Assembly (NCBI GenBank): GCA_029261655.1
Contig: JAJDAY010000005.1
Span: forward strand, 1 to 64,000
DNA: 64,000 nt
Origin: Nitrospinaceae bacterium
Lineage (GTDB): Bacteria > Nitrospinota > Nitrospinia > Nitrospinales > VA-1
Direction: 5' to 3'
The translations under genes were made by a program, and so were the position numbers. The notes below the pieces were generated by a model. The model made no database searches. It was given only the letters and a program-made list of their open reading frames with translations, and had not been told where the DNA came from. How positions within the stretch are numbered: position 1 is the stretch's first letter; each line of letters starts with the position of its first letter. This document shows positions 3,595 to 50,232 of the stretch, piece after piece.

Positions 3595-4689
3595 CTACGC
3601 TTGCTTTGGTTTGAGGGGCATGGAGCTTTCATACCAACCGCGAGTGGAATTGACAATTCGCACCACCGACAGCATCACCGGAACCTCCACCAGCACGCCG
3701 ACCACCGTGGCCAACGCCGCTCCTGATTCAAACCCGAACAGACTGATCGCCGTCGCCACTGCCAGTTCAAAAAAATTGCTGGCGCCGATGAGGGCGGAAG
3801 GCCCCGCAACGCGATGGGGGACGCCGAACCTGCGGTTGAGCAGATACGCCAAACCGGAATTCAGGTACACCTGAATCAAAATGGGAATGGCGAGGAAGAA
3901 AATGACCATCGGCTGTTTGATGATTTGCTCCCCCTGAAAACCGAATAATAATATCAGGGTAGCGAGAAGCGCCAGCAACGACAGGGGGTGCAGAGTTTTC
4001 AAAGTTTTTTCAAGAACTGCTTCATGTTTGCTTTTTATCAGGCGGTTACGCCAGAAATGCGCCACAAGAACAGGGATCACGATATAAAGACTCACGGACA
4101 GGAGCAAGGTGTCCCAGGGGACGATGATTGAGGAGAGCCCCAGAAGTAGAGCCACAATGGGCGCGAAAGCGAAAATCATGATGACATCGTTCAAGGCTAC
4201 CTGGCTCAAGGTGAAGTTGGGTTCTCCGTCCGTGAGGTTGCTCCACACGAATACCATCGCCGTGCAAGGTGCCGCGGCAAGAATGATGAGCCCGGCAATG
4301 TAAGAGTCTATTTGACCTGCGGGAAGGTAATCCGCGAACAGATTGGAGATGAATAACCAGCCGAGCAGGGCCATGGAAAACGGCTTGACCGCCCAGTTGA
4401 TAAAAACGGTGACGCCGATGCCCTTCCAGTGGGAACGCACTTCGTGCAAAGCCCCGAAATCCACCTTCAGTAACATGGGAATGATCATGATCCAGATCAA
4501 GACCGCCACCGGGATGTTAACGTCAAACAATTGCGCCCGGCCAATGGCGTGAAACGGTTCCGGTGTAAAATGACCCAGTGCAATACCCACGACGATACAG
4601 AGAAATACCCAGAGGGTCAGATAACGCTCGAAAACGCCCATTCCGGCATTTTTATTTTGATGGCTGACTGTTTCACACGCCGCGCTCAT
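3595..4689 (-). CDS. acr3: ACR3 family arsenite efflux permease
   Basis: A 364-residue inner-membrane permease of the ACR3 group, which expels arsenite from the cytoplasm using the proton motive force. About ten hydrophobic helices are visible; the family's conserved helix-4 cysteine sits in 'AAAPCTAMVFVWS' (Cys142), followed by the equally typical 'LSQVALNDVIMIFAFAP'. It is the last gene of the arsR-arsI-arsC-acr3 operon; its ATG overlaps the arsC stop codon (ATGA), so translation is probably coupled. In the known pathway ArsC makes arsenite from arsenate and this pump removes it. Length and motifs match an intact, functional family member. Confidence 0.95.
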   Translation of the reverse strand: MSAACETVSHQNKNAGMGVFERYLTLWVFLCIVVGIALGHFTPEPFHAIGRAQLFDVNIPVAVLIWIMIIPMLLKVDFGALHEVRSHWKGIGVTVFINWAVKPFSMALLGWLFISNLFADYLPAGQIDSYIAGLIILAAAPCTAMVFVWSNLTDGEPNFTLSQVALNDVIMIFAFAPIVALLLGLSSIIVPWDTLLLSVSLYIVIPVLVAHFWRNRLIKSKHEAVLEKTLKTLHPLSLLALLATLILLFGFQGEQIIKQPMVIFFLAIPILIQVYLNSGLAYLLNRRFGVPHRVAGPSALIGASNFFELAVATAISLFGFESGAALATVVGVLVEVPVMLSVVRIVNSTRGWYESSMPLKPKQA

Positions 4690-5174
4690 TTTGCGATTTC
4701 CTCAAGACTTTTTTGCAATTGCGCTGGACTGAGCTTTTCTGGCGAAAGAGCTACGAGCCGTTCGACGTGTCGCTCGAATTGCCGGTAGACCTTCTCGAAA
4801 AAGCTCATTTTTTCGTGAAAGGGTCCTTTAAACGCTGCGGGGTCTTCGAGGCCCCAGTGAGCCGTGGCCGGGTTTCCCGGCCAGACCGGGCAAACCTCGC
4901 CCGCCGCGTTATCGCAAACCGTGATGACCGCGTCTATCGCCGGCGCGTTGGGAAGGGTGAACTCATCCCAGTTTTTGCTTCGGAGATGGTCCATGGGGTG
5001 GCCATACGCTGAAAGTAATTCGACGGCCACGGGATTGACCCGGCCGACGGGATGACTTCCCGCGCTGTAGGCTTTAAACCGTTTGCCGCCGTATTTATTG
5101 ATGAGCGCTTCCGCCATGATACTGCGCGCCGAATTGCCGGTGCAGAGGATGAGAATGGCTAATGGTTTGGCCAT
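4686..5174 (-). CDS. arsC: ArsC arsenate reductase, thioredoxin-coupled (LMW-PTP fold)
   Basis: Arsenate reductase of the low-molecular-weight phosphatase type: it reduces arsenate to arsenite using a relay of cysteines and thioredoxin. The P-loop CTGNSARS begins at Cys11 when the ATG at 5174 is used; later come the family's 'ITVCDNAAGEVCPVWPG' relay cysteines and 'HWGLEDPAAFKGP'. I chose the ATG that overlaps the upstream arsI stop codon (ATGA) rather than the in-frame GTG nine bases earlier, because the coupled overlap matches the next junction in this operon. About 162 residues, slightly longer than S. aureus ArsC, with a helical C-terminal extension. Product feeds the adjacent ACR3 pump. 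Confidence 0.95.
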   Translation of the reverse strand: MAKPLAILILCTGNSARSIMAEALINKYGGKRFKAYSAGSHPVGRVNPVAVELLSAYGHPMDHLRSKNWDEFTLPNAPAIDAVITVCDNAAGEVCPVWPGNPATAHWGLEDPAAFKGPFHEKMSFFEKVYRQFERHVERLVALSPEKLSPAQLQKSLEEIAK

Positions 5175-5617
5175 CAACAACACCCAGCCTGTTCTGGCTC
5201 TGGTGATTCAGGGGTGCAACACGCGGTTTCCTCCAAAGAGGTGTCACTGAAAATATCCGCGTCCTCCATCGTCCGGTACGTTTCCCAGGCAATGCCGCTT
5301 GGGTCTTCCACCCATGTTTTATCGGATTTCGCGTAGCAACAAGTGGTTTCGCCTTCTTCCAGAGGTTGGAGGTCCGCATTTTTCAAACGTTCGCGCATGA
5401 TGTCCAGTTCCTCGGCGTTCTCAGTTTGAAAGCCAAGATGATCGATGCCCGGCTTTGCTCCACGGGAGGAAATAGCGAAGTTTATTTTTGGATCGTCGAG
5501 CATCCATTTTGCGTAGTCCTCTTTTTGCTTTGTCGGTTCACAGCCAAACATTTTAGAATAAAAGCCGACGGATTTTTTTAAATCATCAATAGAAACGTGA
5601 ATATGAAATCGTTTCAT
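5174..5617 (-). CDS. arsI: ArsI/CadI family VOC dioxygenase (candidate C-As lyase)
   Basis: A vicinal-oxygen-chelate protein of the ArsI/CadI group. In characterised ArsI, an Fe(II)-dependent dioxygenase, two histidines and a glutamate bind iron and a vicinal cysteine pair binds trivalent organoarsenicals so that the carbon-arsenic bond is cleaved. The same pattern is readable here: N-terminal 'FHIHV' (His5/His7), 'IDHLGFQ' (His60), 'TTCCYAKSDK' (Cys93-Cys94) and 'AWETY' (Glu112). The C-terminal tail adds two further Cys-Cys pairs, as in known ArsI. It lies between arsR and arsC in the operon. CadI-type metal binding without lyase activity is the main alternative, so substrate is inference. 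Confidence 0.88.
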   Translation of the reverse strand: MKRFHIHVSIDDLKKSVGFYSKMFGCEPTKQKEDYAKWMLDDPKINFAISSRGAKPGIDHLGFQTENAEELDIMRERLKNADLQPLEEGETTCCYAKSDKTWVEDPSGIAWETYRTMEDADIFSDTSLEETACCTPESPEPEQAGCC

Positions 5618-5642
5618 GAGAGTTTCTCCTTGAAGGATGTGT

Positions 5643-5981
5643 TTATTTGCTTTTTTCGTCTGGAACGCATGCGCCAGACAAGTCGCAGTTTTCCGCCTGC
5701 CCCTGACAACAATTTTCTGTTAGGTACGCCATCAGGTCGTTCATGGAATCATAATTGGCGGAACAAAATAACGTCCGGCTTTCCCGGCGACATTCGATCA
5801 ACCCCGCCTGCTTCAACTGATTCAGATGAAAGGACAGGGTGGATGGCGGCAGGTCCAGCCGTTGGGCGATTGTTCCGGCAGGAACGCCATTCTTTCCGGC
5901 CTGCACCAGAAACCGGAAGATTTCGAGACGACTCTCCTGAGCGATGGCCGATAAAGCTGATACCGCGATTAATATTTCCAT
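5643..5981 (-). CDS. arsR: ArsR family winged-helix repressor
   Basis: A 112-residue ArsR/SmtB metalloregulator expected to repress the arsenic operon until arsenite binds cysteines. The winged helix is clear: 'QESRLEIFRFLVQAG' followed by the recognition helix 'LPPSTLSFHLNQLKQAGLIECRRESRTLFCSA'. Candidate arsenite ligands are the C-terminal Cys-Cys in 'TENCCQG' with further cysteines downstream ('ENCDLSGAC'), a layout resembling the ArsR subgroup with C-terminal ligands. First gene of the operon, 25 bases upstream of arsI. No ribosome binding site precedes the ATG, and a 16-bp palindrome overlaps it, so the mRNA may be leaderless and the repressor may cover its own start. Confidence 0.93.
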   Translation of the reverse strand: MEILIAVSALSAIAQESRLEIFRFLVQAGKNGVPAGTIAQRLDLPPSTLSFHLNQLKQAGLIECRRESRTLFCSANYDSMNDLMAYLTENCCQGQAENCDLSGACVPDEKSK

Positions 5982-8293: not shown

Positions 8294-10276
8294 ATGTTTA
8301 AAAATATTTATTTGCCCGTAGATAATTCAGACTTTTCCAATACCTGCATTGATCTTGCTCTGGAGTTCGCCAAAGCGGGCGGGACGACTGTTACCGCCAG
8401 CCATGTGTATGCGGCTAAAATGCACGATGTCCGCTTTCGGCAAATGGAGAGCGGTCTGCCTGAGGAGTATCAGGACGAACAGGAGCTTGAAAAGCAACGC
8501 AATATCCACGATCAGTTGATCACCAAGGGCATGGAGGTCATCACCGACTCTTATCTCGAAGTGCCTAAAGCCAGATGTAAGGAGGCTAACGTTCCTTTCG
8601 TCGGCAAATCTCTGGAAGGACGAAACTGGATCGAACTGGTTCGTGATATCAAGGAATCCGATTACGATTTAGTTATATTAGGTGCGTTGGGTCTGGGCGC
8701 TATCAGAGACAGTCAAATCGGAACGGTCTCCGAGCGGGTCATCCGCCGGATTCAAACCGATACCCTGGTGGTCAAGCATATTCCCGGCCTGCATGAGGAC
8801 AGACCGTCCAGCGGCAAAATCGTGGTCGCGGTCGATGGCAGTGGTTACGCCTATGGCGGATTGAAAACCGCCATCGAGATGGCTAAAAATCTCAACCGGC
8901 CTTTGGAAGTGATTTCAACTTTTGATCCCTATTTCCATTACGCCATGTTCAACAGTCTGACCGGCGTTCTGACAAAAGAAGCGGGAAAGGTCTTCAAGTT
9001 CGAGCAACAGGAAAAACTGCATGAAGACATCATCGACAAAGGTCTGGCGAAGATTTATCAGGCTCATTTAGAGATATCCCGGAAAATCGTCGAGGAAGAA
9101 GGGCTGGAATGTACCATCCGTCTCCTGGATGGAAAAGTTTTTGAAAAAGTATTGCAGTATGCCAGAGAAGAAAATCCCTTCCTGCTGATTCTGGGGCGGA
9201 TTGGCGTGCACAGCGCACCCGATATGGACATCGGCGGAAATACAGAAAACCTGCTCAGACTGGTGCCTTGCAATGTTTACCTGTCCAGTAAAGTGTTCAA
9301 GCCGCCGATTGAGTTGGAGGCTGAGGAGAGCATTGAATGGACGGCGGAAGCCAAAGAGCGGTTGAAAAAAATTCCGGGCTTTGTTCTGCCCATGGCAACA
9401 AGTGCCATCCTGCGTTATTCTCTGGAAAGAGGGCACAGCATGATCACTTCAAGTGTCATGACAGAAGCTGTGGAAAATATTCTTCCCGCCGGAGCCATGC
9501 AGGCCATGCGACAAATTGGCGAAAACATGCAAAAAGAAGGCATGAACCCGGACAGCCCGGAAGTTCTTGGAAAACTGAAAGAACAAATGATGGAAGCGCA
9601 CACGGGCAAGAGCGCGGAAGAAGTCACTCTCAAATGCACCAGCTGCGGTAGTATTTTGAAAGGCGATGTCGTTCGGTGCGGAGTTTGCGACGCGACCGCG
9701 GAGCGGTTCCTGCCGATTGATAAGGAAGAATTCAAGCCGGACGAAACAGAAGAAAAAGAAGTCACTACTTTTACGACCTTCGATGATGTCGAGGTCAGCT
9801 GGACCCAGGAAGCTCTGGATTTTCTCGAAGAATTTCCTGAAGGGCATGTGCGCCGAAGAGCCCAAGCGCGAATTGAAAAAAATGCCCGGATTCAAAAGAT
9901 AACCGCCATCTCAATAGCGTTCGCCAACAAAACGGTCAATGAAAAAGCCGTAAAGGAAAACGTGAATGGCAACGGGAAGAAAAACGGCAATCCAAAAACC
10001 ATTCAGGAAGTCATGGAGTTTGGTTCGTCATTCGACCGGGAGGATTTCAACTGGTCCAAGGAAGCTCTTGAGCGGTTGGAACGGGTTCCCAAAGGCTTCA
10101 TGCGTGACAACACAGAAGTTCGCGTTATGGGTTATGCCGGGGCCAACGACATCAAGGACATTTCCATTGAAGTCTGTGAAAAAGGCATTGCGGAATCTGT
10201 AAAACTAATGGAAGAAGCCATTGCCAACGGCGCTGGCCTGGACGATTTTCTGCCAAAAAAAGAGGTGGGAGCCTGA
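8294..10276 (+). CDS. tandem universal stress protein fused to PCP_red-like modules and a zinc ribbon
   Basis: A 660-residue multi-domain protein. Residues 1-165 and 173-332 are two Usp (UspA-type) domains, with the second starting 'KIVVAVDGSGYAYGGL'. Residues about 347-395 ('WTAEAKERLKKIPGF', then 'SAILRYSLERG') match the small PCP_red-type helical module otherwise found at the end of light-independent protochlorophyllide reductase subunit B. Cys448, Cys451, Cys462 and Cys465 form a CxxC-x10-CxxC zinc ribbon. Two further weaker copies of the helical module follow at about 501-548 ('VSWTQEALDFLEEFPEGHV') and 585-632 ('FNWSKEALERLERVPKGFM'). No membrane segment or signal peptide. GGGAG precedes the ATG and a strong terminator follows, so it is monocistronic. 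Function unknown; a stress- or redox-sensing role is inference. Confidence 0.85.
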   Translation: MFKNIYLPVDNSDFSNTCIDLALEFAKAGGTTVTASHVYAAKMHDVRFRQMESGLPEEYQDEQELEKQRNIHDQLITKGMEVITDSYLEVPKARCKEANVPFVGKSLEGRNWIELVRDIKESDYDLVILGALGLGAIRDSQIGTVSERVIRRIQTDTLVVKHIPGLHEDRPSSGKIVVAVDGSGYAYGGLKTAIEMAKNLNRPLEVISTFDPYFHYAMFNSLTGVLTKEAGKVFKFEQQEKLHEDIIDKGLAKIYQAHLEISRKIVEEEGLECTIRLLDGKVFEKVLQYAREENPFLLILGRIGVHSAPDMDIGGNTENLLRLVPCNVYLSSKVFKPPIELEAEESIEWTAEAKERLKKIPGFVLPMATSAILRYSLERGHSMITSSVMTEAVENILPAGAMQAMRQIGENMQKEGMNPDSPEVLGKLKEQMMEAHTGKSAEEVTLKCTSCGSILKGDVVRCGVCDATAERFLPIDKEEFKPDETEEKEVTTFTTFDDVEVSWTQEALDFLEEFPEGHVRRRAQARIEKNARIQKITAISIAFANKTVNEKAVKENVNGNGKKNGNPKTIQEVMEFGSSFDREDFNWSKEALERLERVPKGFMRDNTEVRVMGYAGANDIKDISIEVCEKGIAESVKLMEEAIANGAGLDDFLPKKEVGA

Positions 10277-10328: not shown

Positions 10329-10374
10329 AAAGCCCCTTGGCTGTTGATGAGAATCAACACGAGGGGCTTTTCTC
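10329..10374 (+). terminator. Rho-independent terminator after the Usp-fusion gene
   Basis: Arms AGCCCCT and AGGGGCT with an inner GTTGAT/ATCAAC stem enclose a short loop and are followed by TTTTCTCTTT. Confidence 0.85.
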
Positions 10375-10468
10375 TTTCACTTTTCTCCGAAAATAGAATA
10401 AAAGTAGATTTCCCGCTGGAAAAGCCTTAGAATAGAGTGTAACTAATTGTTAAATAAAGGTTATTTCT

Positions 10469-10824: not shown

Positions 10825-12600
10825 ATGTCTTTTACGTTATACAAACGCCTGTTTCAGTATTTAAAGCCCTATCTTCCCAAGGTCATTCTGGCGATTATTT
10901 TTTCCATTATCGTTGGAGCCATTTCAACGTCTCCCATTCCAATCATCCAGAAAACCTTTGACAAAATTTTTGTCGAAAAAGATTTATTCATGCTGAAAGT
11001 GATTCCCCTGGCATTGATCGGGCTCTTTCTTGTCAAGGGTGTGTTAACTTATGCGCAAAACCTGATTATTTTTGGGATCTCCTGGGAACTTGTGGTTTCC
11101 GTTCGGGAAAAACTATTTGCCCACATCCATCGCCTGCCGTTCCTGTTTTTTGAAAATAACGAAACCGGTCATCTCATTTCCAGAATCATTAATGATGTGA
11201 ACATCATGCAATCCACCATCACGCGCCTGATGAAAGAATTCATGCAAAACAGCGCGATGGCGATCGGGTTGTTATTCTGGTTATTTTATTTGAAATGGAA
11301 ATGGGCCATCATCGCTATCATCGTTTTTCCCTTTATGGCGTTTCCCATTTCCAATATTTCCAGAAAGTTGAAAAAGTTCAGTCACAAAGGCCAGGAGATT
11401 CTGGCAAACGTGAACTCCACTATTCTGGAGTCCTTTTCAGGAATAAAAATTGTCCGGGCTTTTGGGCTGGAATCCGTAGAACGGGAAAAATTCGAAAGGC
11501 ACAGCGGAAATTTCCTGAAAGTGATGAAGAAAAATGTGAAGTACGTTGAAATCGTGTCTCCGCTGTTGGAATTTCTGGGGGTGGTGAGCGCGGGCGTTGT
11601 TCTTTGGTATGGAGGAAATCAGGTGTTGACGGGCGAGGTGAGCCAGGGAACGTTTATCGCCTTTGTGGTGGCCATGTTCATGCTTTATGGTCCGGTGAGG
11701 TTGCTATTTAAAATTTATGCGAATATTCAAATTTCCCTTGCCGGAGCCGAACGCGTTTTCGCCATTCTGGACCAGGAAGAAGAAAGAATGGATGAGGGGA
11801 AACAGGAACTCGTTCAGTTCAAGGATCAAATCGAGTTTCAGAAAGTGTCGTTTCGCTATCCATCGAGAGAAACAATGGTGTTGTCAGATATAGATGTGAC
11901 CGTCAAAAAGTCGGAGATCCTGGCCATCGTGGGAATGAGCGGAGCGGGCAAGACGACTTTTGTTGATTTGTTATTCCGTTATTTTAATGTCACTTCCGGA
12001 AAAATTTTAATCGACGGAAAAGATATTCGTGAATACCGTCTCGAGTCACTGCGGCGGAATATGGCTCTGGTCACGCAGGAAACATTTTTATTCAACGATA
12101 CCATTTGGAACAATATCGCGTTCGGGAAAACGGATGCCACGAAGGAAGAAATTTTGCAGGCGGCAAAAGCGGCGCATGTGGATTTTTTCGTAAAACATAT
12201 GGACGATGGATACGATACCATGATCGGCGAACGCGGTGTGAAGCTTTCCGGCGGACAGCGGCAGAGAGTCGCCATTGCCAGGGCCATCTTGAGAGACGCG
12301 CCAATTCTGGTGCTTGACGAGGCCACCTCCGCCCTGGATTCGGAGTCTGAAAAACTGGTTCAGGACGCGTTGCATCACCTGATGGAACATCGAACCACAT
12401 TTGTCATTGCGCATCGGCTGTCCACCATCCAAAATGCGGACCGCATCATTGTCCTGGAAAAAGGCCAAATCGTTGAGTCGGGAACGCATGAACATCTTCT
12501 ATCAAACAGTGGTTTGTACCAAAAATATTTTGAGATGCAGATGTTTAATGTCGATGAAAAAAGTGAGGACCTAAAGGAAATATCCAAAGATGCGATTTAG
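10825..12600 (+). CDS. MsbA-type lipid ABC exporter (fused permease and ATPase)
   Basis: A 591-residue half-transporter: six transmembrane helices in residues 1-310 and a nucleotide-binding domain behind them. Walker A 'GMSGAGKTT' (about 370), the signature 'LSGGQRQR' (about 474), Walker B 'ILVLDEATSALD' and the switch histidine in 'VIAHRLS' are all intact. The N-terminal half resembles MsbA, which flips lipid A-core across the inner membrane. The ATG of oleA lies inside its last codons, so it is translationally coupled to the OleA-OleB pair; that context raises the possibility that it exports another lipid, such as a long-chain olefin or beta-lactone-derived product. MsbA proper remains the conservative call. 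Confidence 0.85.
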   Translation: MSFTLYKRLFQYLKPYLPKVILAIIFSIIVGAISTSPIPIIQKTFDKIFVEKDLFMLKVIPLALIGLFLVKGVLTYAQNLIIFGISWELVVSVREKLFAHIHRLPFLFFENNETGHLISRIINDVNIMQSTITRLMKEFMQNSAMAIGLLFWLFYLKWKWAIIAIIVFPFMAFPISNISRKLKKFSHKGQEILANVNSTILESFSGIKIVRAFGLESVEREKFERHSGNFLKVMKKNVKYVEIVSPLLEFLGVVSAGVVLWYGGNQVLTGEVSQGTFIAFVVAMFMLYGPVRLLFKIYANIQISLAGAERVFAILDQEEERMDEGKQELVQFKDQIEFQKVSFRYPSRETMVLSDIDVTVKKSEILAIVGMSGAGKTTFVDLLFRYFNVTSGKILIDGKDIREYRLESLRRNMALVTQETFLFNDTIWNNIAFGKTDATKEEILQAAKAAHVDFFVKHMDDGYDTMIGERGVKLSGGQRQRVAIARAILRDAPILVLDEATSALDSESEKLVQDALHHLMEHRTTFVIAHRLSTIQNADRIIVLEKGQIVESGTHEHLLSNSGLYQKYFEMQMFNVDEKSEDLKEISKDAI

Positions 12601-13636
12601 CAATGTTTGCGTTGAAGCCGTGGCTCAGCATTTGCCCGACAACGTGGTCACGTCGGAAGATCTGGAAAATAGAATGCGGCCGTTGTACGAGCGGTTGAAA
12701 CTCCCGGTGGGCCGCCTGGAGTTGATGAGTGGGATAAGAGAGCGCAGGTTCTGGAACGAGGGCGTCGTGCCAAGCGAAGTCGGAGCGATCGCCGGAGAAA
12801 AGGTCCTTGAAAAAACCGGCTTTGACCGGTCGCGGATCGGGTGCCTGATCAGCGCTTCTGTCTGTAGAGATTTTTTAGAGCCCGCCACAGCTTCCGTGGT
12901 CCACAATAAGTTGCAGTTGCCAGGGAATGCGGAGGTGCTTGATATATCAAATGCCTGTTTGGGCGTTCTTAATGGAATGGTGCATGTCGCCAATATGATC
13001 GAATTGGGTCACATTGAGGCGGGTCTGGTGGTGGCTGGCGAAAACGGCGGTCCTCTGGTTCACCATACCATTGAAACTCTATTGTCCAAGCCAATGGTCA
13101 CCCGCAAGGAAATTAAATCTTCTTTTGCGTCTCTGACCATCGGGTCCGCTGCTGTGGGAGTGTTGCTGACCCATAAAAAAATTTCCAGAACAGGGCATCG
13201 ACTGTTGGGCGGAGTTTCCTTCGCCGCGAGTCAATTCAACGATCTTTGTCGGGGAAATGATGACAGTGAAAGCACATCCGGCTGGTCGCCCTTGATGGAA
13301 ACGGATGCTGAAACCCTGATGAGAGAAGGTTGCAGGCTTGCGGGGGACACCTGGAACGCTTTCAAGACTATTATGAACTGGAAAAACGAGGATATCGACC
13401 GGGTATTCTGCCATCAGGTGGGGTCCATGCATCGAAAGCTTCTCTATGAAACCATCGGCATGGGTCTTGACAAGGATTTCTCCACGCTGGAAATTCTTGG
13501 CAATACCGGGGCCGCATCTCTCCCCGTCACTTTGGCGATGGGAGAAGACAAAGGGTTTTTGCCGTCCGGCAGCAAAGCGGCTCTGCTTGGAATCGGCAGT
13601 GGACTCAACTGTCTCATGCTTGGCGTTGAGTGGTGA
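12590..13636 (+). CDS. oleA: OleA-like thiolase-superfamily acyl-CoA condensing enzyme
   Basis: A 348-residue condensing enzyme of the FabH/OleA group. OleA joins two fatty acyl-CoAs head to head to give a beta-keto acid, the first step of long-chain olefin synthesis. The active-site triad is Cys123 in 'DISNACLGVLNGM', His275 in 'VFCHQVG' and Asn305 in 'EILGNTGAAS'; Glu97 in 'RDFLEPAT' sits where OleA supplies its additional glutamate, a feature separating it from ordinary FabH. It overlaps the exporter gene by 11 bases and the next gene, an OleB-like hydrolase, by 7. The OleB neighbour is the main reason for preferring OleA over a generic ketoacyl synthase III. Confidence 0.85.
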   Translation: MRFSNVCVEAVAQHLPDNVVTSEDLENRMRPLYERLKLPVGRLELMSGIRERRFWNEGVVPSEVGAIAGEKVLEKTGFDRSRIGCLISASVCRDFLEPATASVVHNKLQLPGNAEVLDISNACLGVLNGMVHVANMIELGHIEAGLVVAGENGGPLVHHTIETLLSKPMVTRKEIKSSFASLTIGSAAVGVLLTHKKISRTGHRLLGGVSFAASQFNDLCRGNDDSESTSGWSPLMETDAETLMREGCRLAGDTWNAFKTIMNWKNEDIDRVFCHQVGSMHRKLLYETIGMGLDKDFSTLEILGNTGAASLPVTLAMGEDKGFLPSGSKAALLGIGSGLNCLMLGVEW

Positions 13637-14520
13637 TCCGTTTTCAGGAATTTGAAGAACTCTATCCTTACAAAGCCCGGTCTTTGGAGTTGGGGGCGCT
13701 GAGTTACAGTTTTCTGGACGAAGGGCAGGGCGAACCGCTGTTGATGCTTCACGGCAATCCTACCTGGTCTTTTTATTATCGTAATCTGGTTCTTGGGTTG
13801 AAAGATAAATACCGGTGCGTGGTCCCGGATCATATTGGTTGCGGGTTTTCTTCCAAACCGTTCAATTATAACTATACCCTGTCGCAACACATCGACAACC
13901 TGGAAGCCCTGGTCGAATCCCTCAACCTTAAAAATATCACGTTGGTTTTACACGATTGGGGCGGCGCCATCGGCATGGGATTCGCTGTCCGTCATCCTGA
14001 AAAAATTGCCCGAATTGTTGTTTTCAACACAGCCGCTTTTTTATCCGATCACATTCCCGCCAGCATCAATTTTTGCCGACGCCCCGTATTGGGTCCGATA
14101 GCCATTCTTCTGTTCAACGCATTTGTCCGTGGCGCTTTATGGAGAGCCTGCGCTCACCCCGAACGATTGACGAGAAAAGTCAGAGAAGGATATTTCGCTC
14201 CCTATAACACCTATGCAAATCGAATGGGAATTTTGCGGTTCATCCAGGACATTCCCATGCATTCCGGTGTGCCAAGTTATTCCGTTGTTAAAAAGATTGA
14301 AGAAAATTTGCAGACGTTTCGGGATCGTCCGATGATGATCGTCTGGGGCAAGCAGGATTTCTGCTTCAACGATCACTTTTTAAATCGTTGGAAAGAATAT
14401 TTTCCTGAAGCGGAAGTTCATGAAGTGGAGGACGCCGGACATTTTGTAGTGGAAGACGCCTACGAGAGAATCATTCCCTGGATGCGCGAGTTCTTGCAAA
14501 AACACCCTTTGACATATTAA
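13630..14520 (+). CDS. oleB: OleB-like alpha/beta hydrolase (beta-lactone decarboxylase / haloalkane dehalogenase fold)
   Basis: A 296-residue alpha/beta hydrolase of the haloalkane dehalogenase superfamily. The nucleophile is Asp109 in 'LVLHDWGGAIGMG', with HGNPTWSF forming the oxyanion region, a candidate acid in 'VWGKQDFCF' and the catalytic histidine in 'VEDAGHFVVEDA' near the C-terminus. In Ole pathways the enzyme of this family decarboxylates a beta-lactone to an alkene. Start is one of two adjacent GTG codons overlapping the oleA stop; tight coupling to oleA supports the OleB call. No oleC (lactone synthetase) or oleD (reductase) follows: the next gene is an unrelated exported protein. 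A dehalogenase-like role is the alternative. Confidence 0.82.
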   Translation: MVIRFQEFEELYPYKARSLELGALSYSFLDEGQGEPLLMLHGNPTWSFYYRNLVLGLKDKYRCVVPDHIGCGFSSKPFNYNYTLSQHIDNLEALVESLNLKNITLVLHDWGGAIGMGFAVRHPEKIARIVVFNTAAFLSDHIPASINFCRRPVLGPIAILLFNAFVRGALWRACAHPERLTRKVREGYFAPYNTYANRMGILRFIQDIPMHSGVPSYSVVKKIEENLQTFRDRPMMIVWGKQDFCFNDHFLNRWKEYFPEAEVHEVEDAGHFVVEDAYERIIPWMREFLQKHPLTY

Positions 14521-45147: not shown

Positions 45148-46941
45148 ATGAAAATGAAATTATTTCAAATTGCACTTCTTGCTTTGGTTCTTTTTTATTC
45201 AACACCCACCAAAGTTTCTGCCGATATTGGCACTTGGACGGAGGCCGTTGACTGCCCTGGTCGGTATTGGACCTCTGGAAATATAACCTGGGAGTCAATG
45301 CTTAAAAATTTAACTTGGTATTCCCTTGTCATGACGGGCGGACAGAATCCTAGACCACCAACGGCAATTTATTCCTCTGGATGGGACGCTGCAGGGTATC
45401 CCCACATGTGCCTTTATATGCCCAGTCAACCAACAAACAAGGCACATATTTGGTGTGGTATTGGTTGTCAAACCGCACATCCTTACGATCATACGACTGT
45501 TGAACCCGACCCTGATGCCGATTCGCAGGCTATGGCTTTCCGGTTTGCTGATGGTTCTCAAATTGATCCAGCGACAGGGAATACTATTCCGTACAACACC
45601 TTTGCGGAAACCCCGCCTTTTAAGAACGACGAAGTGAAAAATGGTGAAGCTGCAGAGTGCCCAGGATGTATTATCCATGTGGAAACGCAGGTTTTGGGCG
45701 AGCGGATTCCGGTTGTGGGGACACCTTTTAGTCTGAACTATGTATCCGAACGGATTTTCGATTTCCGGGCAAATTCCACTGTCAACATTCCTGTCACCGG
45801 ACCCACGGTTCCCGTCAATGTCATAAATTCGAAAGTAACGATTGAGGTTGTGGGCCAAATATTCGAGTTTGAACAACTGCCCGCTCCCAATATTACGTTA
45901 CCCTTCACCTGGGATGGATTGGATGCTCAGGGCTATCCGGTAGTTGGGCCAGTAGAGGCCGTTATCAAAATTGAAATGGAGTTTGACACCAACTTCGTGG
46001 CCGCTAGGGAATACGAGGTGGAATTCAATAGTTCCGATTTCAGAGGCATGGGGCTGGGCGGCTGGACTTTGGATCAACATCATTATTACAATCCCATGGA
46101 AAAAATACTGTATTTAGGCAATGGCGATCGCAGAAGCGATGAAAACATGAACTCGATCATCACCACCGCGATAGGCGGTGGAGGTTCTAATCCATCAAGT
46201 ATCGAGCAGCAGGGCCCTTTGGGCGTATCTTTTATTTATCCCGAAGGAGTCGTGGCCGACGATGCGGGAAATGTGTATGCGTCCGGTACATATCAATCCA
46301 TTATAGTGAGGTTGAATGCAGATGGCTCTGGAGAGCGAATTACCTCTGCTGGGGGTGGTTTTACTGGAGACGGTGGACCAGCAACTAATGCGAAGGTGAA
46401 TAACCCTAAAGGTTTGGCTCTGGATTCTCAGGGAAACCTCTATATTGCGGATACCTACAACCAGCGAGTTCGTAAGATCGACACCAACGGTATCATTTCT
46501 ACGATCGCGGGCAGTGGCCTCGCTATTTCGTGGGCGGGGGCTTTCGCTGGAGATGGTGGCCCTGCCACTAGCGCAAGGCTGAACAATCCTACTGATGTGG
46601 CCGTTGATTCAGCTGGCAACCTTTATATTTTAGACACTAATAATTACCGAATCCGCATGGTGGATACCAACGGTATCATTTCTACGGTAGCGGGAGACGG
46701 AACTTATCCTAGTAGTTCAATCTATGGAGAGGGTGGCCCGGCGGTCGATGCAAAAATAAGTCCCCAAGCCATTACCATTGATCCAAATGACAATCTGATC
46801 ATAGGTGGAGGATATTGGATTTTGAAAGTGGACAATGCCGGGATCATTTCTACATTGGCGGGAACCGGGCCAGATGACCGCACAACAGGTCCTTATGGCG
46901 ACGGAATCCTTGCCACGGATTCTGTCTTGAGTCCACTGTGA
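45148..46941 (+). CDS. NHL-RHS polymorphic toxin, N-terminal part (ends at an in-frame TGA)
   Basis: 597 residues ending at a TGA that lies inside an NHL repeat. Signal peptide 'MKMKLFQIALLALVLFYSTP', then a unique region with three nearby cysteines, an RHS-associated beta module ('CIIHVETQVLGERIPVVGTP' and 'GLGGWTLDQHHYYNP'), and a propeller of NHL repeats such as 'NNPKGLALDSQGNLYIADTY' and 'NNPTDVAVDSAGNLYILDTN'. The reading frame continues directly after the stop with 'MVFDENGNLFIAD', the expected continuation of the repeat 'SPL?MVFDENG', where glycine (GGA) would be usual. So this and the next entry are one gene of about 1,694 codons interrupted by a single base change. N-terminal export signals fit a secreted or surface RHS protein. 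Confidence 0.85.
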   Translation: MKMKLFQIALLALVLFYSTPTKVSADIGTWTEAVDCPGRYWTSGNITWESMLKNLTWYSLVMTGGQNPRPPTAIYSSGWDAAGYPHMCLYMPSQPTNKAHIWCGIGCQTAHPYDHTTVEPDPDADSQAMAFRFADGSQIDPATGNTIPYNTFAETPPFKNDEVKNGEAAECPGCIIHVETQVLGERIPVVGTPFSLNYVSERIFDFRANSTVNIPVTGPTVPVNVINSKVTIEVVGQIFEFEQLPAPNITLPFTWDGLDAQGYPVVGPVEAVIKIEMEFDTNFVAAREYEVEFNSSDFRGMGLGGWTLDQHHYYNPMEKILYLGNGDRRSDENMNSIITTAIGGGGSNPSSIEQQGPLGVSFIYPEGVVADDAGNVYASGTYQSIIVRLNADGSGERITSAGGGFTGDGGPATNAKVNNPKGLALDSQGNLYIADTYNQRVRKIDTNGIISTIAGSGLAISWAGAFAGDGGPATSARLNNPTDVAVDSAGNLYILDTNNYRIRMVDTNGIISTVAGDGTYPSSSIYGEGGPAVDAKISPQAITIDPNDNLIIGGGYWILKVDNAGIISTLAGTGPDDRTTGPYGDGILATDSVLSPL

Positions 46942-49900
46942 ATGGTTTTTGATGAAAATGGCAACCTGTTTATTGCCGACTCTATTTATGTTGGAGGGAT
47001 TACTCGAGATAGGATTCGTGTTATCGATTCAACAGGCATTGTCAACACCGTAGGTGGTTCAACCCGTGGGGGGAGTGGTGTAGGAGACAACGGCCCTCCA
47101 GCAAACGCCCAATTTAACTTTCCGAACAAAATTACGCTTGATACCGAAGGCAACCTGTTTATTGCCGAAAAGCAAAGTAGCAGGATTCGTAGAATCGTGA
47201 ATCCTCTTTCAGGGTTTTCCGGTGCCGATGTCGTTCTTGCCTCTGAAGACGGCACCGAGCTGTACCTGTTTGACCCTAATGGAAGACATCTCAAAACAAT
47301 CAACTCCTCTACTGGTGCAGATGTCTGGGTGCATGCTTACGACACGGAGGGTCTTTTAACAACCATCACGGATGGTGATGGCGACGTGACCACCTTCCAA
47401 CGGGATGTGAATGGCAACCCCACGGGAATAACTTCCGCAGACGGTCAAACCACGGTGCTTGCACTCGATGTAAATGGGTATCTGAACGGCATCACCAACC
47501 CGGCAAACGAAACCAATTTGTTCGAGTACACAGCCTATGGTCTGATGACCAAACGTACCGATCCGAGACTCAACGATTCCATTTACACCTATAGCTCTGA
47601 GGGCAAGTTGACCCAGGATCTTGATCCTGCAGGTGGCACGCAAACACTGGCACGTACCGGGACTAACGACAACTACACCGTCACCAACACCACAGCCATG
47701 GGGCGCGTGTCAAGCTTTGGAGTGGACAACGACATTGTGGGCGCCGAGAACCTGCGCACCACCACCGATCCCAGTGGGTTTTCTACCACAACATTATTGG
47801 GCACCGATCAAAGCCAAGCCATCACCACACCCGATGGCACCCAAACGCTAATCACCACCAACCCCGATCCGCGCTTCGGCATGCAGGCCCCCATCAGTAA
47901 CCTAACCGTTACTACACCCGGCGGTCTTATCTCAACTCTCACCACCACGCGAAATGTGACCCTCGCCGACCCTGTCGATCCGCTCAGCCTTCTCACACAG
48001 ACCGACACGCTCAATCTGAATGGACGTGCATTCACCAGTGTGTTTGATAAGAACCTGCTCAAGGTCACGGATATAACGCCAGTGGGGCGGACGACCACAG
48101 CATTTGTGGACAGTCAAGGTCGTATTCTGACGCAACAGGTTCCAAATCTGGATGACACTCTATTTGGTTACGATACGCGGGGTCGTTTGAACACGGTCAC
48201 ACAAAGTACGGGACCGACCGAGCGGGCAAGTTCGATTGCCTACAATACGGCAGGTTTTATTGATAGCATCATTGACCCTGAATCACGGGTTGTGAGCTTT
48301 CAATATGATCTTACGGGCCGGGTCACCAAACAGATTCTGCCCGACTTGCGCGAGATCAATTTCACTTACGATGCTAATGGCAATGTTGGGTCGATCACAC
48401 CTCCCGGTAGACCTACTCACGTGTTTAATTACACGGCTGTGAATCTGGAATCCGACTACACTCCGCCGGTGGTTACAGGTTCCGGCACCAACGCCACCGT
48501 TTTCACATATAACTTGGACAAGCAACTCACGTTGATCACACGGCCCGATGCCCAGACTGTCGCCTTGAATTACGACACGGGCGGACGGCTCAGCAATGTG
48601 GTCATCCCTCGTGGCACGACCAACTATTCTTATTTTCCGACCACAGGTAACCTTTCCTCCATCACAGCACCCGATGCAGGCACGTTGACGTTTGCTTATG
48701 ACGGGTCCTTACTGAATAGTTCGACATGGACAGGTACGGTAGCAGGTAGCGTGACTCGTACTTATGACAACGATTTCCGCGTGACATCAAGAAGCGTCAA
48801 CGGAGGAAATACGATTGCCTTCGGTTATGACAATGACAGTTTGTTGACCGTAGCCGGGGCAGAAACGTTGGCTTATGATCCGACCAACGGTCTTCTTACA
48901 GGGACTACCTTGGGCATAGTGACGGATTCTTTGACTTACAACGGCTTTGCGGAAGTGAATAGTTACACCGCCAACGTCAGTGGTTCTCCCGTATTCTCAA
49001 ACTCTTTTGTGCGGGATAAACTGGGACGGATTTCTCAGAAAACTGAAACCGTTCAAGGTGTGACGCATGTGTTCGACTACACCTACGACACCGCAGGGCG
49101 GTTGACTGATGTGGATAGAGACAGCCTGCCGTTTGCGTCCTACACCTATGACAGCAACGGAAACCGCTTGAACAACGGTGCCGTATATGACGATCAGGAT
49201 CGCCTGCTATCTCAAGGGACAGCCACCTACACCTACACGGCCAATGGTGAACTCCTGACCAAGACGGATGCCTCAGGAACCACGACTTACAGCTATGATG
49301 TACTCGGCAACTTGATTTCGGTAATTTTGCCATCAGGCACAACCATTGAATATGTGGTCGATGGGAGAAATCGTCGGATCGGTAAAAAAGTTAATGGTAC
49401 ACTGGAACGTAGCTGGCTTTACAAAGATGGTTTAAACCCCGTCGCCGAGTTGGATGGCAGCGGCGCAGTTGTATCTCGGTTTGTGTATGCTACTAGATCG
49501 AATGTTCCAGACTTCATTATTAAGGGAGGAAATACTTATAGGGTTGTAAGCGATCATCTTGGCAGTCCACACTTGGTGGTCGATACAACTACTGGAACTG
49601 TCATTCAATCTATGGATTTTGACGAGTTTGGCCAAGTTACTGGTGATACCAATCCTGAGTTTCAGCCCTTTGGATTTGTAGGTGGGCTATATGATGCTGA
49701 CACCAAACTGGTCCGTTTTGGCGCACGAGATTATGATGCAGAAACAGGTCGATGGACCAATAAAGATCCGATTCGATTTGCTGGTGACGGCCCAAATCTA
49801 TATGGCTATACGTTGAATAACCCCGTTAACTTTATTGATCCAAGCGGATTGGCTACAGGAGATTGGTGGGATGTGCCAGCAAACTATGACAGAGCCAAAG

Positions 49901-50232
49901 AAATTGGACAAGAGGAATTAGCAAAAAGACCTCTTTCACGCAATGATATGGGGGATGCAAAGAGACATTCTGAGTGGATGAGGAGAACAGCTGAAGAGAC
50001 TAATACCTTTACAGCTTGGGCTGCAGGTACAGGCTATGAAATAAAAGGCCTATTCAAGGGACAACCGTTGAATGAAATGCGCATGGATTTACATAATAAC
50101 TCGGTTGGTAGAGAGGCTGGAAGAAATGGAACATCTGTTAATTCAAATGATTTGAAAACTATCAATTCATTTAATTCAATCTATGATTCGTATTTAAAAT
50201 TTAGCAACTTCTTTTCGGTGTGTGAAAAATGA
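46942..50232 (+). CDS. RHS-repeat polymorphic toxin, C-terminal part with variable tip
   Basis: 1,096 residues in the same frame as the preceding entry. The last two NHL repeats are followed by more than 20 YD repeats ('FEYTAYGLMTKRTDPRLND'; 'YDTAGRLTDVDRDSLPFAS'), which wrap into an RHS cocoon, then the RHS core end '[20 protein letters not shown]' and 'NPVNFIDPSGL' (about residue 966). The last 125 residues are the variable tip, with 'MGDAKRHSEWMRRTAEET' and 'MRMDLHNNSVGREAGRNG'; the RHxxW...MDLHNN pattern resembles a tip domain found in other polymorphic toxins (DUF6973-like, recalled, not searched) and could be a hydrolase. No start signal is expected at the ATG after the stop; it may be expressed only by readthrough or reinitiation. 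Its stop overlaps the next gene. Confidence 0.85.
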   Translation: MVFDENGNLFIADSIYVGGITRDRIRVIDSTGIVNTVGGSTRGGSGVGDNGPPANAQFNFPNKITLDTEGNLFIAEKQSSRIRRIVNPLSGFSGADVVLASEDGTELYLFDPNGRHLKTINSSTGADVWVHAYDTEGLLTTITDGDGDVTTFQRDVNGNPTGITSADGQTTVLALDVNGYLNGITNPANETNLFEYTAYGLMTKRTDPRLNDSIYTYSSEGKLTQDLDPAGGTQTLARTGTNDNYTVTNTTAMGRVSSFGVDNDIVGAENLRTTTDPSGFSTTTLLGTDQSQAITTPDGTQTLITTNPDPRFGMQAPISNLTVTTPGGLISTLTTTRNVTLADPVDPLSLLTQTDTLNLNGRAFTSVFDKNLLKVTDITPVGRTTTAFVDSQGRILTQQVPNLDDTLFGYDTRGRLNTVTQSTGPTERASSIAYNTAGFIDSIIDPESRVVSFQYDLTGRVTKQILPDLREINFTYDANGNVGSITPPGRPTHVFNYTAVNLESDYTPPVVTGSGTNATVFTYNLDKQLTLITRPDAQTVALNYDTGGRLSNVVIPRGTTNYSYFPTTGNLSSITAPDAGTLTFAYDGSLLNSSTWTGTVAGSVTRTYDNDFRVTSRSVNGGNTIAFGYDNDSLLTVAGAETLAYDPTNGLLTGTTLGIVTDSLTYNGFAEVNSYTANVSGSPVFSNSFVRDKLGRISQKTETVQGVTHVFDYTYDTAGRLTDVDRDSLPFASYTYDSNGNRLNNGAVYDDQDRLLSQGTATYTYTANGELLTKTDASGTTTYSYDVLGNLISVILPSGTTIEYVVDGRNRRIGKKVNGTLERSWLYKDGLNPVAELDGSGAVVSRFVYATRSNVPDFIIKGGNTYRVVSDHLGSPHLVVDTTTGTVIQSMDFDEFGQVTGDTNPEFQPFGFVGGLYDADTKLVRFGARDYDAETGRWTNKDPIRFAGDGPNLYGYTLNNPVNFIDPSGLATGDWWDVPANYDRAKEIGQEELAKRPLSRNDMGDAKRHSEWMRRTAEETNTFTAWAAGTGYEIKGLFKGQPLNEMRMDLHNNSVGREAGRNGTSVNSNDLKTINSFNSIYDSYLKFSNFFSVCEK

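Follow-up and report, generated by a model that had tools for sequence, protein, structure and literature searches.

The Usp-Usp-PCP_red protein described here is a fusion of two universal stress protein (Usp) domains with three copies of PCP_red, a small helical module, and a four-cysteine knuckle. It is encoded in the window, the whole stretch of 64,000 nucleotides from a Nitrospinaceae bacterium that was analysed. We propose, with roughly even confidence, that it is a nucleotide-responsive scaffold or regulator of PCP_red-tagged heme synthesis, which would probably act at coproheme decarboxylation. We infer the link to heme from domain composition and gene order, and consider it well supported. 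If the proposal is right, it provides a function for a domain hitherto known chiefly from chlorophyll synthesis, and it gives a specialised tandem universal stress protein a definite task, the control of heme synthesis. To our knowledge, the function of tandem universal stress proteins is rarely known.

Domain architecture

The open reading frame and Pfam matches confirm the fusion that the sequence-only reading had described at this locus. Its features, all on the forward strand, are as follows.

8294..10276, + strand: Usp-Usp-PCP_red-ribbon-PCP_red-PCP_red protein, 660 aa (open reading frame with ATG start; Pfam; orthologs across the phylum)
8294..8776, + strand: Usp domain 1, aa 1-161, with a long conserved helical insert at aa 41-97 (Pfam PF00582; AlphaFold2)
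8681..8725, + strand: Usp1 ATP-binding motif G-x2-G-x9-G-T, GALGLGAIRDSQIGT (read from the sequence; alignment of relatives)
8816..9286, + strand: Usp domain 2, about aa 175-331, with a conserved helical insert at aa 214-268 (Pfam; alignment; AlphaFold2)
9194..9238, + strand: Usp2 ATP-type motif, GRIGVHSAPDMDIGG (alignment)
9338..9469, + strand: PCP_red module 1, aa 349-392 (Pfam, over cut-off)
9635..9688, + strand: CxxC-x10-CxxC rubredoxin/zinc-ribbon knuckle, C448, C451, C462 and C465 (weak RUBY_RBDX match; conserved cysteines)
9800..9919, + strand: PCP_red module 2, aa 503-542, P-x-G-H-V-R subtype (Pfam; ortholog score)
10052..10180, + strand: PCP_red module 3, aa 587-629, P-x-G-F-M-R subtype (Pfam; ortholog score)
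10331..10377, + strand: probable intrinsic terminator, AGCCCCT...AGGGGCT with a T-rich tail (by eye; the loop exceeds the length limit of the scan)

The protein is a member of the Usp family, two stretches of it matching PF00582 (E 1.9e-30, 106.7 bits against a cut-off of 24). The motif of the first Usp domain is present in 118 of 120 full-length relatives and that of the second, with G, S or T as its last residue, in 116 of the 120. In the alignment this last residue is G in the window copy and S in deep lineages. The inserts of the two domains (window 8414-8584 and 8933-9097; HDxRFRQMESGLP...ITDSYL and FDPYFHY...HEDIIDKGLAKIYQAHL) are strikingly conserved across phyla, which suggests a dedicated binding or dimer surface.

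PCP_red (PF08369) is matched three times (E 9.7e-26), the whole protein scoring 90 bits against a cut-off of 32.5. Taken as separate segments, module 1 scores 45.2 bits and is over the cut-off; module 2 (about 26.0-26.1 bits, E 9.7e-6) and module 3 (about 26.9-27.3 bits, E 5e-6) fall about 6 bits under it. The corresponding modules of the Nitrospira defluvii ortholog score 41.8 and 37.1 bits, both over the cut-off, therefore the three-module reading is sound and the protein carries true PCP_red modules. Chance similarity or low complexity was ruled out for modules 2 and 3, as they are conserved in order-level orthologs and exceed the cut-off in Nitrospira.

Between modules 1 and 2, where a zinc ribbon had been reported, the four cysteines of the CxxC..CxxC knuckle are conserved across the window's order. 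The match to RUBY_RBDX is weak in the window copy (0.029) and reaches 8.7e-6 in N. defluvii (25.5 bits against a cut-off of 26.5), and the knuckle probably resembles rubredoxin more than a generic zinc ribbon.

AlphaFold2 models were obtained for the full protein (pLDDT 75, pTM 0.50) and for a form of ancestral length (pLDDT 81, pTM 0.72). The Usp domains are well predicted, with helices at residues 41-54 and 62-97 in the insert of the first. The PCP_red modules form three separate bundles on disordered linkers, and each bundle has three helices. The top Foldseek matches are the tandem Usps Rv2623 (3CIS), UspE (4R2J/5CB0) and ATP-bound TTHA0350 (3AB8); no match extended beyond the Usp part, and the PCP_red part is assigned by sequence.

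Distribution and tail length

Proteins combining Usp and PCP_red were found in Nitrospinota, Nitrospirota and beyond. PCP_red is present in 73 of the 77 Nitrospinota genomes of the phylum survey, nearly all of which have the Usp-Usp-PCP_red protein. Nearly every well-assembled relative has a closely similar protein, whose presence is therefore not due to chance. Families f7 and f8 lack both this protein and PCP_red in the same survey. The length of the tail differs between groups: one PCP_red module in the f9 group (a protein of about 401 aa), two in f6, three with the knuckle in the window's order, and five with a rubredoxin knuckle in f5 (773 aa).

When named genomes were scanned for the Usp-Usp-PCP_red core, 419 relatives were found. 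The best 80 of these 419, a sample biased to close relatives and consisting mostly of Nitrospira, were analysed; they include Nitrospinota, Nitrospirota (N. defluvii, N. moscoviensis), a Thermodesulfovibrionia genome, a Chloroflexi MAG and others. All 80 carry PCP_red (three modules in 68, two in 3 and one in 9), therefore this type of Usp and PCP_red go together. A tree of modules of about 50 aa is weak and was used for nearest-neighbour grouping only; in this grouping the modules mostly associate by partner and position, not by genome, and they are therefore old and specialised.

In the Chloroflexi MAG a further domain with an FSAHLPV motif, to which Pfam gave no match, is fused to the N-terminus of the Usp-PCP_red protein (L113:5281-7194). 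A separate small protein with the same motif adjoins the Usp-PCP_red operon in Thermodesulfovibrionia (L117:8901-9554).

Enzymes associated with PCP_red

A profile search of the whole genome from which the window derives found nine PCP_red modules in five genes. The four further genes (on C9, C5, C19 and C24; L039-L042) encode, in this order, a zinc ribbon-PCP_red protein, a PCP_red-HemQ fusion, a triple PCP_red protein and a radical SAM/SPASM-PCP_red fusion with NirJ2 and AhbD as its closest families. These genome-wide and phylum-wide surveys rule out a lone reuse of the module. The window had been described as free of photosynthesis genes, which is right and extends to the genome: no match to PF00148 (BchN/BchB/nitrogenase) was found by profile search in the protein or in the whole genome, which rules out a remnant photosynthesis gene.

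The only Chlor_dismutase (PF06778)/HemQ gene of the genome is the PCP_red fusion. Its sequence contains the stretch WY.L....R..IM..H, which we take to hold the proximal histidine. The fusion is present in most genomes of the window's order, and the phylum survey did not find it in deeper Nitrospinota lineages. Ferrochelatase (PF00762) is also present, so that the genome has both markers of the coproporphyrin-dependent heme pathway, ferrochelatase and HemQ/ChdC. The genome's only close AhbD-type radical SAM protein is likewise a PCP_red fusion (309 bits, against 68 for the next protein). The siroheme decarboxylase AhbA/AhbB (PF17805) is absent from this genome by profile search and from 11 others; it is present in 3 of the 15 genomes tested.

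In the phylum of genome G080, PCP_red is fused to NIR_SIR proteins with the CX5C..CX3C ligands of a siroheme cluster. In L229, L232, L241 and L247 the module lies at the N-terminus of a small NIR_SIR and ferredoxin-type protein. These proteins resemble sulfite reductase subunit C and score under its cut-off; the fusion is apparently undescribed.

PCP_red is thus found on four enzyme families: BchB, HemQ, AhbD-like radical SAM proteins and NIR_SIR. Judged by family assignment, all four are tetrapyrrole enzymes. Fe-S is present in the other three families but not in HemQ, so that tetrapyrrole is more likely than Fe-S to be what they have in common.

Gene neighbourhoods

Outside the window's order the Usp-PCP_red gene keeps company with heme genes. 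Among the best 80 of the 419 relatives, all in genomes other than that of the window, it is immediately followed by a radical SAM gene at 64 of the 71 loci with enough downstream sequence, at a median distance of 9.5 bp. Where complete, this radical SAM protein ends in PCP_red. It is closest to NirJ2 and to the heme b synthase AhbD, with scores of up to 457 bits; against the AhbD model TIGR04545 the range is 309-457 bits, under the equivalog cut-off of 500, and the scores are also under the NirJ2 cut-off of 500. We therefore describe the partner as AhbD-like and do not assign it as AhbD. The same gene order occurs in deep (f9) Nitrospinota, where a CheY-like gene precedes the pair, in Thermodesulfovibrionia and in the phylum of G080.

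Other neighbours are more varied. In G086 the radical SAM-PCP_red gene adjoins protoporphyrinogen oxidase (TIGR00562, 271 bits against a cut-off of 98) and the Usp-PCP_red gene lies near CcmH. In G080 the Usp-PCP_red gene is downstream of a gene like the heme b subunit of type II DMSO reductases. In Nitrospira, a B12-binding-type radical SAM protein and a CopD/DUF4149-like membrane protein flank the operon (L110:4183-5838 and 9587-10102), and both are recurrent.

In the window the gene looks monocistronic. The neighbours conserved across the window's order comprise an FBP-aldolase-like gene and a group of MsbA-like, OleA-like and hydrolase genes. Heme genes were looked for beside the Usp-PCP_red gene in this order and were not found, the order-wide synteny being unrelated to heme.

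A possible role in heme synthesis

Coproheme becomes heme by an O2- or peroxide-dependent route with HemQ and by an O2-independent route with AhbD, and in Haloferax these serve aerobic and anaerobic growth (PMC5746218). We propose that PCP_red would be a small module of helices at which tetrapyrrole enzymes, or the substrates of these enzymes, are docked or handed over. The tail of three modules may gather PCP_red-tagged enzymes, probably at the decarboxylation of coproheme to heme, where the O2- or peroxide-dependent HemQ and the O2-independent AhbD-like radical SAM protein would share one substrate. The choice of the engaged enzyme, or its activity, might then be set by the Usp pair, which would bind ATP or some other nucleotide, and by the metal or redox state of the rubredoxin-like knuckle.

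The respiratory chains of nitrite oxidisers demand much heme, and the habitats of these bacteria span oxygen gradients. A protein addressing both enzymes by one tag would suit such organisms, and a role in heme control, if right, would matter for nitrite oxidisers. More tentatively, and at somewhat less than even confidence, the AhbD-like radical SAM-PCP_red protein and the Usp-PCP_red array may represent an unrecognised O2-independent system of coproheme decarboxylation in nitrite oxidisers and related organisms, one that dispenses with AhbA/AhbB and is under the control of adenine nucleotide and redox state; PCP_red would then be a general docking or hand-over module of tetrapyrrole enzymes, not a chlorophyll module.

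Against a role in heme synthesis, no heme genes adjoin the gene in the window's order, and the radical SAM protein scores under the curated cut-offs. The linkage to Mrp and the Fe-S clusters in three of the four enzyme families are likewise compatible with a role in iron-sulfur metabolism. PCP_red might dock SIMIBI P-loop iron-sulfur ATPases (BchL in the case of BchB, Mrp/ApbC here), the protein then organising Fe-S transfer to radical SAM and reductase clients instead of handling tetrapyrroles. NifH-like BchL works with BchB (PMC7948495), and both the AhbD-like and the NIR_SIR partners have Fe-S clusters. In the window's own genome the zinc ribbon-PCP_red gene directly follows an Mrp/ApbC-type iron-sulfur carrier ATPase, and such an ATPase directly adjoins ribbon-PCP_red in Nitrospinota, Nitrospira and Chloroflexi. 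The Chloroflexi MAG has Usp-Usp-PCP_red, an Mrp-like ATPase, ribbon-PCP_red and radical SAM-PCP_red in one run, without HemQ; in a Nitrospinota genome assembled in one contig, HemQ-PCP_red lies within 3.6 kb of the ribbon-PCP_red/Mrp pair. We nevertheless regard an iron-sulfur role as unlikely: HemQ, an enzyme without an Fe-S cluster, bears PCP_red in most genomes of the window's order, and Usp-PCP_red is paired with the radical SAM protein far more often than with Mrp.

The sequence-only reading had suggested a reuse of PCP_red in stress or redox sensing. A sensing function of the Usp pair or of the knuckle is possible, as a means of regulating heme synthesis; the suggestion is too narrow in that PCP_red tags tetrapyrrole enzymes and Usp-PCP_red is operonic with an AhbD-like enzyme in several phyla. 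In its strict form the protein would be a stress or redox sensor working on its own, with PCP_red as a generic helical module for protein-protein contacts and no tetrapyrrole link; we consider this quite improbable, given that same operon partner and the membership of all four PCP_red enzyme families among tetrapyrrole enzymes. The two ATP-type Usp domains, the CxxC knuckle and the monocistronic gene in the window would agree with such a sensor, as would, if any of them is Usp-PCP_red, four UspA-family proteins of Nitrospira marina that are up at low O2 beside co-induced clusters (PMC8115632).

About equally improbable is a maturation or assembly factor for respiratory membrane complexes that contain heme b and Fe-S (nitrite oxidoreductase and further type II DMSO reductases, cytochrome bd-like oxidases). 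The abundance of Usp-PCP_red in nitrite oxidisers points to such a factor, as do some of the neighbours: upstream of the gene, L117/L204 have the beta subunit of a type II DMSO reductase together with bd-like subunits, and L200 has a heme b gamma-like subunit; a cytochrome bd-like gene is found in L113, and L203 has CcmH and cytochromes. But such neighbours vary by lineage while the radical SAM gene is nearly constant, and the HemQ fusion points to heme synthesis itself. A role in respiratory complexes may be a downstream consequence of the role in heme synthesis.

Other genes in the window

Three further groups of genes were noted in the window. Positions 3595-5981, read by eye, encode an ACR3-like permease, an arsenate reductase, a glyoxalase-fold ArsI-like protein with a Cys-rich tail and an ArsR-like regulator, which together look like an arsenic resistance cluster. 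At 12590-14520 an OleA-like ketoacyl synthase and an alpha/beta hydrolase, named by eye, lie behind an MsbA-like ABC transporter in an order-conserved synteny; they are possible genes for olefin or long-chain hydrocarbon synthesis. An NHL-propeller gene (45148-46941) precedes a gene for a large Rhs/teneurin-like YD-shell protein with DUF6973 at its end (46942-50232), and the pair looks like a Rhs-type polymorphic toxin arrangement.

Comparison with known systems

The PCP_red domains of BchB/ChlB (excised domain 2KRU; 3AEK, 2YNM) and of Nostoc Asr4154 (2L09) share with the modules described here the three-helix W..EA..L...P-F-R pattern and the profile family, and a profile built from our modules finds the known PCP_red structures at 7e-15 to 2e-8. 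The protein is not BchB, as the Oxidored_nitro catalytic body is missing; NCBIfam BchB models match the PCP_red tail only, far under cut-off. Unlike the BchB system, this genome has no BchN, BchB or nitrogenase-like partner, and in the proteins described here PCP_red occurs in up to five copies and in fusions with Usp, HemQ, radical SAM and zinc ribbon domains. In the literature searched, no paper deals with PCP_red outside phototrophs or with this protein. One published pre-screen of genomes for chlorophototrophy includes PF08369 in its set of Pfam families (PMC12815261), and non-phototrophic nitrite oxidisers, with their many PF08369 copies, would trip it.

With Rv2623, UspE and TTHA0350 the protein has in common two Usp folds with ATP-type motifs. 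At the level of fold it differs from them in its long conserved helical inserts and in the C-terminal tail of PCP_red modules and knuckle.

The operon partner shares the CX3CX2C motif and the auxiliary cysteine motifs of the radical SAM-SPASM proteins AhbD and NirJ2. It differs from these in an added C-terminal PCP_red, and AhbA/AhbB are absent from most genomes tested.

HemQ/ChdC is the coproheme decarboxylase of the Chlor_dismutase family, and the version in the window's genome bears PCP_red. Haloarchaeal PitA is an example of a fused HemQ, with a monooxygenase-like domain at its C-terminus (PMC5746218); the fusion described here instead has PCP_red at the N-terminus of HemQ.
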